Assembly: GCA_949317995.1 (NCBI GenBank)
Contig: OX439050.1
Span: forward strand, 54,003,777 to 54,067,776
Length of the DNA stretch: 64,000 bases
From: Acholoe squamosa
Lineage: Eukaryota; Annelida; Polychaeta; Phyllodocida; Polynoidae
Direction of reading: 5' to 3'
The position numbers were made by a program, and so were the translations under genes. The notes beneath the pieces are model-generated. The model was not told where the DNA came from. It worked only from the letters and a program-made list of their open reading frames with translations, and searched no databases. Of the stretch, positions 36,555 to 63,502 are shown in pieces (positions within the stretch are counted from its first letter, which is position 1; every line of letters starts with the position of its first letter).

Positions 36555-36686
36555 TTATGAGCTGGCAAGATTTAGGGCTGACCGGAAGTAGTTCATAGTA
36601 GAGGACTCTGACTCTGAGTCTCTTCTTTCTCTCTTTCGCTCATCTTTGGAAAGTTGTTTCATTGCCATCCCTAAGTGGCTGAGGAT
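36555..36686 (-). CDS. RTK last exon and stop
   Basis: Acceptor tttcag, then 43 codons and TAA at 36557-36555. It finishes the last kinase helix (ILSHLGMAMKQL) and adds a short charged, Ser-rich tail with one Tyr (MNYF). The stop rules out a fusion with the ligand-binding-domain gene downstream. Confidence 0.88.
   Translation of the reverse strand: MLSHLGMAMKQLSKDERKRERRDSESESSTMNYFRSALNLASS

Positions 36687-63502: not shown

Follow-up and report, generated by a model that had tools for sequence, protein, structure and literature searches.

Can a domain of the mannose 6-phosphate receptor type serve as the sensor of a protein kinase? The question is raised by a gene of the annelid Acholoe squamosa (genome of 1.48 Gb in 63 contigs), which lies on the minus strand of a 64,000-nucleotide stretch of contig OX439050.1 (assembly GCA_949317995.1, positions 54,003,777 to 54,067,776), hereafter the window. 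A preliminary description had read it as a receptor tyrosine kinase with an MRH (mannose 6-phosphate receptor homology) ectodomain that would recognize a glycan or lysosomal-type cargo. MRH domains act in cargo sorting and glycoprotein quality control, and to our knowledge they are not known as kinase sensors. Our analysis leads us to favor, with some reserve, a type I receptor kinase that crosses the membrane once and is shared by annelids and molluscs, with an MRH ectodomain joined to a kinase that is either tyrosine kinase-like (TKL) and related to RAF or a sister of the tyrosine kinases (TKs).

Thirteen exons of the gene fall within the window, the last ending at a TAA stop codon (36557-36555). 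They have AG acceptors in 13 of 13 cases and GT donors in 12 of 12, and joined together they give a single stop-free frame of 865 amino acids. This model lacks the N-terminus, as the true exon 1 lies beyond the window end; we located it with a tblastn search of orthologous N-termini over the window and a further 39 kb of contig beyond it, at 69127-68844 in the numbering of this extended stretch, which puts it 4.8-5.1 kb outside the window. Exon 1 opens with an ATG and a hydrophobic, signal-peptide-like start (MAALAGFKTLTLVILLTLTLVPVLLA), includes the first cysteine of the MRH domain (ISPCSVLVDGRLIDL), and closes with GG before the donor GTAAGT, in a phase that matches the opening A of the exon at 63502. 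The full-length protein thus has 960 amino acids, encoded by 14 exons over about 32.6 kb. As an independent check, a hidden Markov model (HMM) was built from nine orthologues, with the window sequence left out, and run against all 4,653 six-frame open reading frame pieces of at least 15 codons in the 103-kb extended region. It returned 12 matches at E<=1 (E 9e-20 to 0.56, the weakest being 0.21 and 0.56) and at this threshold missed exon 58563-57542, which bears the insert, and the final exon. Because all 12 matches belong to the receptor-kinase gene, being exon 1 and 11 of its 13 exons in the window, and follow the order of the profile, a chance origin of the predicted exon chain is excluded. 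The thirteen in-phase exons first described are therefore confirmed by their splice signals, their single frame and the orthologue HMM. The features of the gene, all on the minus strand, are as follows.

36555-63502, minus strand: extent of the gene within the window, holding 13 of its 14 coding exons; exon 1 lies some 5 kb beyond, on the same contig
63502-63394, 58563-57542, 56983-56878, 56719-56674, 56343-56146, 43175-43001, 42311-42165, 41643-41487, 40896-40783, 39909-39837, 39728-39538, 37363-37235 and 36686-36558, minus strand: the 13 window exons, forming an open frame
63394-63502, minus strand: exon 2 of 14, predicted MRH beta strands with the motif W-x-Y-x-F-N-P-C (HMM match, E 1.3e-5)
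57542-58563, minus strand: exon 3, predicted MRH strands split by a long insert (unmatched by the orthologue HMM)
57586-58482, minus strand: low-complexity insert of about 300 residues in an MRH loop, Asp/Glu-rich and then Lys/Arg-rich
56878-56983, minus strand: exon 4, predicted MRH strand ending at a conserved Cys (YIYLVC; weak HMM match, E 0.21)
56674-56719, minus strand: exon 5, predicted end of the MRH domain, E-L-x-H-x-C-x-C (HMM match, E 2.8e-5)
56146-56343, minus strand: exon 6, stalk, membrane helix and start of the juxtamembrane region (HMM match, E 0.016)
56183-56254, minus strand: single transmembrane helix, residues ~553-576, from hydropathy
36672-43017, minus strand: protein kinase domain in eight exons (PF07714, E 3.6e-46; HMM exon matches)
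40816-40839, minus strand: catalytic loop HRDLRCAN, from sequence
39895-39903, minus strand: DFG motif, from sequence
39837-39861, minus strand: activation-loop cysteine motif C-x5-C-x-C, its last Cys codon split with exon 39728-39538

Hydropathy peaks only at residues 1-32 and 547-580, and the kinase is C-terminal to the second peak. The product is thus a predicted type I single-pass receptor kinase, with a signal peptide, an ectodomain, one transmembrane helix and a putatively cytoplasmic kinase.

Two repeat-like features lie in the introns of this gene. A 60-nucleotide part of the transmembrane exon (56167-56226) recurs at 55990-56049 in the following intron with 83% identity and a start-to-start spacing of 177, as a partial exon duplication. 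G-rich stretches at ~61950-62200 and 45460-45710 share similar phrases by eye (gggtttgaggggg / ccccctgttg) and are probably a dispersed repeat; a repeat search of 44000-63600 for copies of at least 150 nucleotides listed none.

The preliminary description had called for orthologues with the same domain order, and these were found. A query from the transmembrane segment to the kinase gave six proteins at 208-295 bits, followed by a drop to 150 bits, with matches in the annelid Owenia fusiformis, the chiton Liolophura sinensis and the bivalves Mizuhopecten, Dreissena and Mactra; a scallop-ectodomain query returned five proteins, of which three were from named scallops; it added Ylistrum and Pecten and missed Owenia. 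Nine related proteins share the identical order of ectodomain, transmembrane helix and kinase, and together with the window protein they make up the ten members compared below. The Liolophura model (isoform X2) is missing the N-terminal part of its ectodomain, the Pecten model begins differently and lacks the first cysteine, and entry P0071 represents 97 member sequences. Database names for the family are disparate (RAF-like, FGFR-like, drkD, Ser/Thr kinase receptor), and because public records use such unrelated names the family is easily missed. A profile search from ectodomain to juxtamembrane region recovered its own rows P0005 and P0001 only and missed P0004. These family searches were limited by shared words and do not settle the range beyond annelids and molluscs. 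Searched against the Acholoe genome, P0004 had 18 matches, including two exons of the receptor-kinase gene; several were short catalytic-loop matches, e.g., C2:47606734 (53%) and C1:109589033 (48%), and a paralogue is possible.

To which group the kinase belongs depends on the kind of comparison. Searching the PDB with the window kinase as a single sequence put EGFR (110 bits) and FGFR3 (99 bits) first, followed by the SRC-ABL ancestor (97) and B-RAF (92), among the best 60 of 2,045 matches. With a family profile, among the best 60 of 548 matches, B-RAF scored 176 bits in one domain against 151 for the SRC-ABL ancestor, and a two-domain EGFR chain led by summed score (192 bits) yet reached only 93 per domain. 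An IQ-TREE analysis of 31 kinases, with references only in part tool-derived, recovered a TK clade without the receptor-kinase family (support 99/100), and forcing the family together with SRC/ABL cost 39.7 log units and was rejected (approximately unbiased (AU) test, p 0.0022). A second tree, built with tool-derived references only and including three TKs of the Acholoe genome, again gave a TK clade without the family (100/99) and rejected its pairing with an Acholoe SH2 TK (p 0.0085); positions as sister to all TKs (p 0.391) or with B-RAF (p 0.415) were not rejected. According to one study, an AAR catalytic-loop motif and an activation-loop Trp are TK-specific (PMC8662651). The AAR motif is absent from all ten members, which have HRDLRCAN or HRDLRCGN, and the Trp before APE, present in all ten, does not discriminate because B-RAF has it too. 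The catalytic loop of Src has RAA, not AAR.

The proposal that this is a true receptor tyrosine kinase (RTK), a fast-diverged member of the crown TK group, as first described, draws on the likeness of HRDLRCAN to Src HRDLRAAN without the Ser/Thr-kinase lysine, on IRWTAPE, which resembles TK P+1 loops, on EGFR and FGFR3 heading the single-sequence search and the EGFR chain leading the profile search by summed score, and on a placement as sister of all TKs that neither tree rejects (p 0.287 and 0.391). Set against the exclusion from both TK clades, the two rejected pairings, the per-domain profile score favoring B-RAF, and the lack of both an AAR motif and a conserved activation-loop Tyr in the ten members, these points leave the crown-TK proposal unlikely, and "tyrosine kinase" in the family sense is not supported. 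The kinase is probably of TKL type or a sister of the TKs, and not a standard tyrosine kinase. Besides giving the best single-domain profile match, B-RAF has IPDGQITVGQRIGSG where the family has IP..E...GQRLGGG; the family differs from RAF and other TKL kinases in its membrane receptor form, its HRDLRC in place of HRDLK and its cysteine-rich activation loop, and a Pfam scan of the 865-residue protein found neither RAS-binding nor C1 domain, both features of the RAF family. Elsewhere in the genome, contig C2 carries other kinases (L005, L007 and L009), each with its kinase domain within one open frame: two ROR-like RTKs and one MuSK-like RTK, the names being given by resemblance only.

Is the kinase active? 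In the window protein it retains the VAIK lysine, HRD and DFG, so that its description as complete holds for these motifs; it does not hold for the alpha-C Glu, replaced by Asp, nor for the family, half of which lacks the lysine. HRD and DFG are intact in all ten members, as is the Cys of HRDLRC, and a C-x4/5-C-x-C motif occurs in every activation segment. Five members keep the VAIK lysine (the window protein and those of Owenia, Liolophura, Dreissena and Mactra), and the other five have Ser or Thr in its place (P0002, P0004, P0069, P0070 and P0071); at the alpha-C Glu position, the window protein and that of Dreissena have Asp, and that of Mactra has His. These losses would fit a protein that is mainly a pseudokinase or co-receptor, its ligand binding allosterically controlling a partner kinase. 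We doubt this for the family as a whole, given HRD and DFG in 10/10 members, the lysine in half of them including the window, and an Owenia protein that keeps both Lys and Glu. For scallops, where the VAIK lysine is lost, the sequences do suggest a kinase-independent role as pseudokinase partner or scaffold.

For the ectodomain, sequence methods fell short and the MRH assignment was decided by fold search alone: structure prediction on two orthologues, followed by a fold search, gave a CI-MPR/CD-MPR-type beta fold. The ectodomain is thus a CI-MPR-type MRH fold as predicted on these orthologues, and an MRH-type ectodomain, one membrane helix and a kinase in a single protein are borne out. Of the checks proposed at the outset, structure prediction returned the MRH fold, and the profile search did not: the best Pfam match of the window ectodomain is ATG27 (PF09451, E 2.2e-4), at 21.6 bits under the curated cut-off of 27. 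Aligning against a CD-MPR sequence with hhalign produced no usable alignment. ATG27 shares the order of MRH domain and transmembrane helix and, unlike the receptor kinase, has no kinase; from CI-MPR/IGF2R, CD-MPR, OS-9, GNPTG and ELAPOR1 the protein differs in that a single MRH domain is here fused to a kinase. Compared with CD-MPR, a Cys at the place of C141 is absent in 10/10 members, and the family has no conserved cysteine column near C106.

The insert at 57586-58482 consists of an acidic part with a GAT-type microsatellite and a basic part with furin-like RQRR and RVKR sites, and it is absent from six aligned orthologues; Owenia has, in place of a loop insert, a long acidic stalk joining the ectodomain to the membrane. 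An unspliced intron was considered and rejected: among 14 in-phase GT-AG pairs (donors at nucleotides 60-150 and acceptors at 850-1015 of exon 58563-57542), the best donor scored 3/9, against 5-8 for the 12 known donors.

What such an ectodomain binds bears on the proposal of a lectin receptor that recognizes mannose or mannose 6-phosphate and links lysosomal-type cargo to signaling. MRH mannose(-6-phosphate) lectins use a Gln-Arg-Glu-Tyr quartet to bind sugar. We aligned the family with CD-MPR by hand, anchored on two cysteines; the spacing of the two late conserved cysteines is 33 residues in the family and 34 (C119-C153) in CD-MPR. In this alignment the position of Tyr143 is I, V, L or M and that of Arg111 is K, Q, T or V in all ten members. 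A Gln two places past a conserved Gly, present in 9/10 members (not Dreissena), may match Gln66, and Glu133 could not be placed. The hand alignment thus speaks against a canonical mannose 6-phosphate site, and with neither the Tyr nor the Arg of the quartet at its anchored place in any member, the case for recognition of a mannose-type glycan is weakened. Many MRH domains of CI-MPR do not bind sugar, and since its domain 11 binds IGF2, the fold also serves protein ligands. Despite the predicted CI-MPR/CD-MPR fold and the Gln in most members, we therefore regard a glycan-lectin function as distinctly improbable.

That an MRH gene and a kinase gene were wrongly chained across the 13-kb intron between the exons at 56146 and 43175 is scarcely credible and was rejected, since the nine related proteins hold both parts, junctions 63394/58563 and 56146/43175 sit within segments conserved with Owenia (MLPGLRSS / TMPGLRSI across the latter), and two relatives of 646 and 645 amino acids sit on contigs no longer than 2,145 and 2,786 bases, too short for such introns, and so look like transcripts.

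Several results weigh against the MRH receptor kinase that we propose. The AlphaFold models were made for orthologues, not for the window's own chain, and two of the five models per job were poorer (mean predicted local distance difference test scores of 70.2 and 42.6 in one, 50.7 and 48.1 in the other). A phmmer search of the ectodomain against the PDB gave 0 matches, an ectodomain profile gave four weak matches that included no MRH protein, and ATG27 (PF09451) was matched by only one of seven members and, separately, by none of five orthologues. The MRH domain of Acholoe squamosa itself is split by the 300-residue insert, and its kinase has Asp for the alpha-C Glu. As for the kinase group, the first tree rejected neither RAF (AU p 0.419), all TKs (p 0.287) nor LIMK/TESK (p 0.086) as partners, and the family has a long stem of ~1.1 changes per column; several references are also long-branched, which makes any exact placement in the tree tentative.

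If the MRH receptor kinase is nevertheless correct, a ligand, by our guess probably a protein and not a mannose 6-phosphate glycan, would bind the MRH domain, either on the cell surface or inside an endosome, and alter receptor pairing. The TKL/RAF-like or TK-sister kinase might then phosphorylate itself and downstream proteins, with Ser/Thr or dual specificity to judge from its ancestry. Given that no activation-segment tyrosine is conserved, control would likely run through partner pairing, possibly with the three conserved activation-loop cysteines as a metal or redox element, rather than through an RTK tyrosine switch. More tentatively still, the family may form a receptor class apart from RTKs and TGF-beta receptors, in which a RAF-related TKL kinase gained a mannose 6-phosphate receptor-type ectodomain in the annelid/mollusc lineage. 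If true, a MAP3K-like kinase would stand under direct membrane ligand control, its switch a cluster of activation-loop cysteines instead of phosphotyrosine.

A conserved MRH-kinase family would mean a new signaling route for this type of domain and would blur the border between RTKs and the TKL group; it also gives annelid and mollusc biology a defined orphan receptor whose ligand can be sought, and lets natural forms that keep the ATP-binding lysine be compared with others that have lost it. Among the matches listed, titles and abstract starts held no description of a receptor kinase with an MRH ectodomain, in a search that scarcely covered subscription journals. An oyster kinome study mentions four TKL kinases placed in unique families, and a relative might be among them (PMC4883820). 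The Venus kinase receptors are likewise a family of invertebrate receptor kinases set apart by an ectodomain novel among kinases, and differ from the MRH receptor kinase in combining a Venus flytrap ectodomain with an insulin-receptor-like TK (PMC3703292, PMC4026697).

The window also contains, at 18337-21963 on the plus strand, a single-exon open frame of 1208 amino acids. Its product is rich in Ser, looks disordered and matches nothing in Pfam (E<=0.01) or the PDB (E<=0.1). On the mitochondrial contig (C63), genes were named by eye from translations of at least 90 amino acids, covering all but the last 641 of 15,641 bases; all recognized protein genes share a strand and run nad4L-nad4-(gap)-nad1-nad3-nad2-cox1-cox2-cox3-nad6-cob-atp6-nad5, which matches the annelid ground pattern. 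The interval from nad4 to nad1 holds a long TA-rich simple repeat (L012, ~4440-4860).
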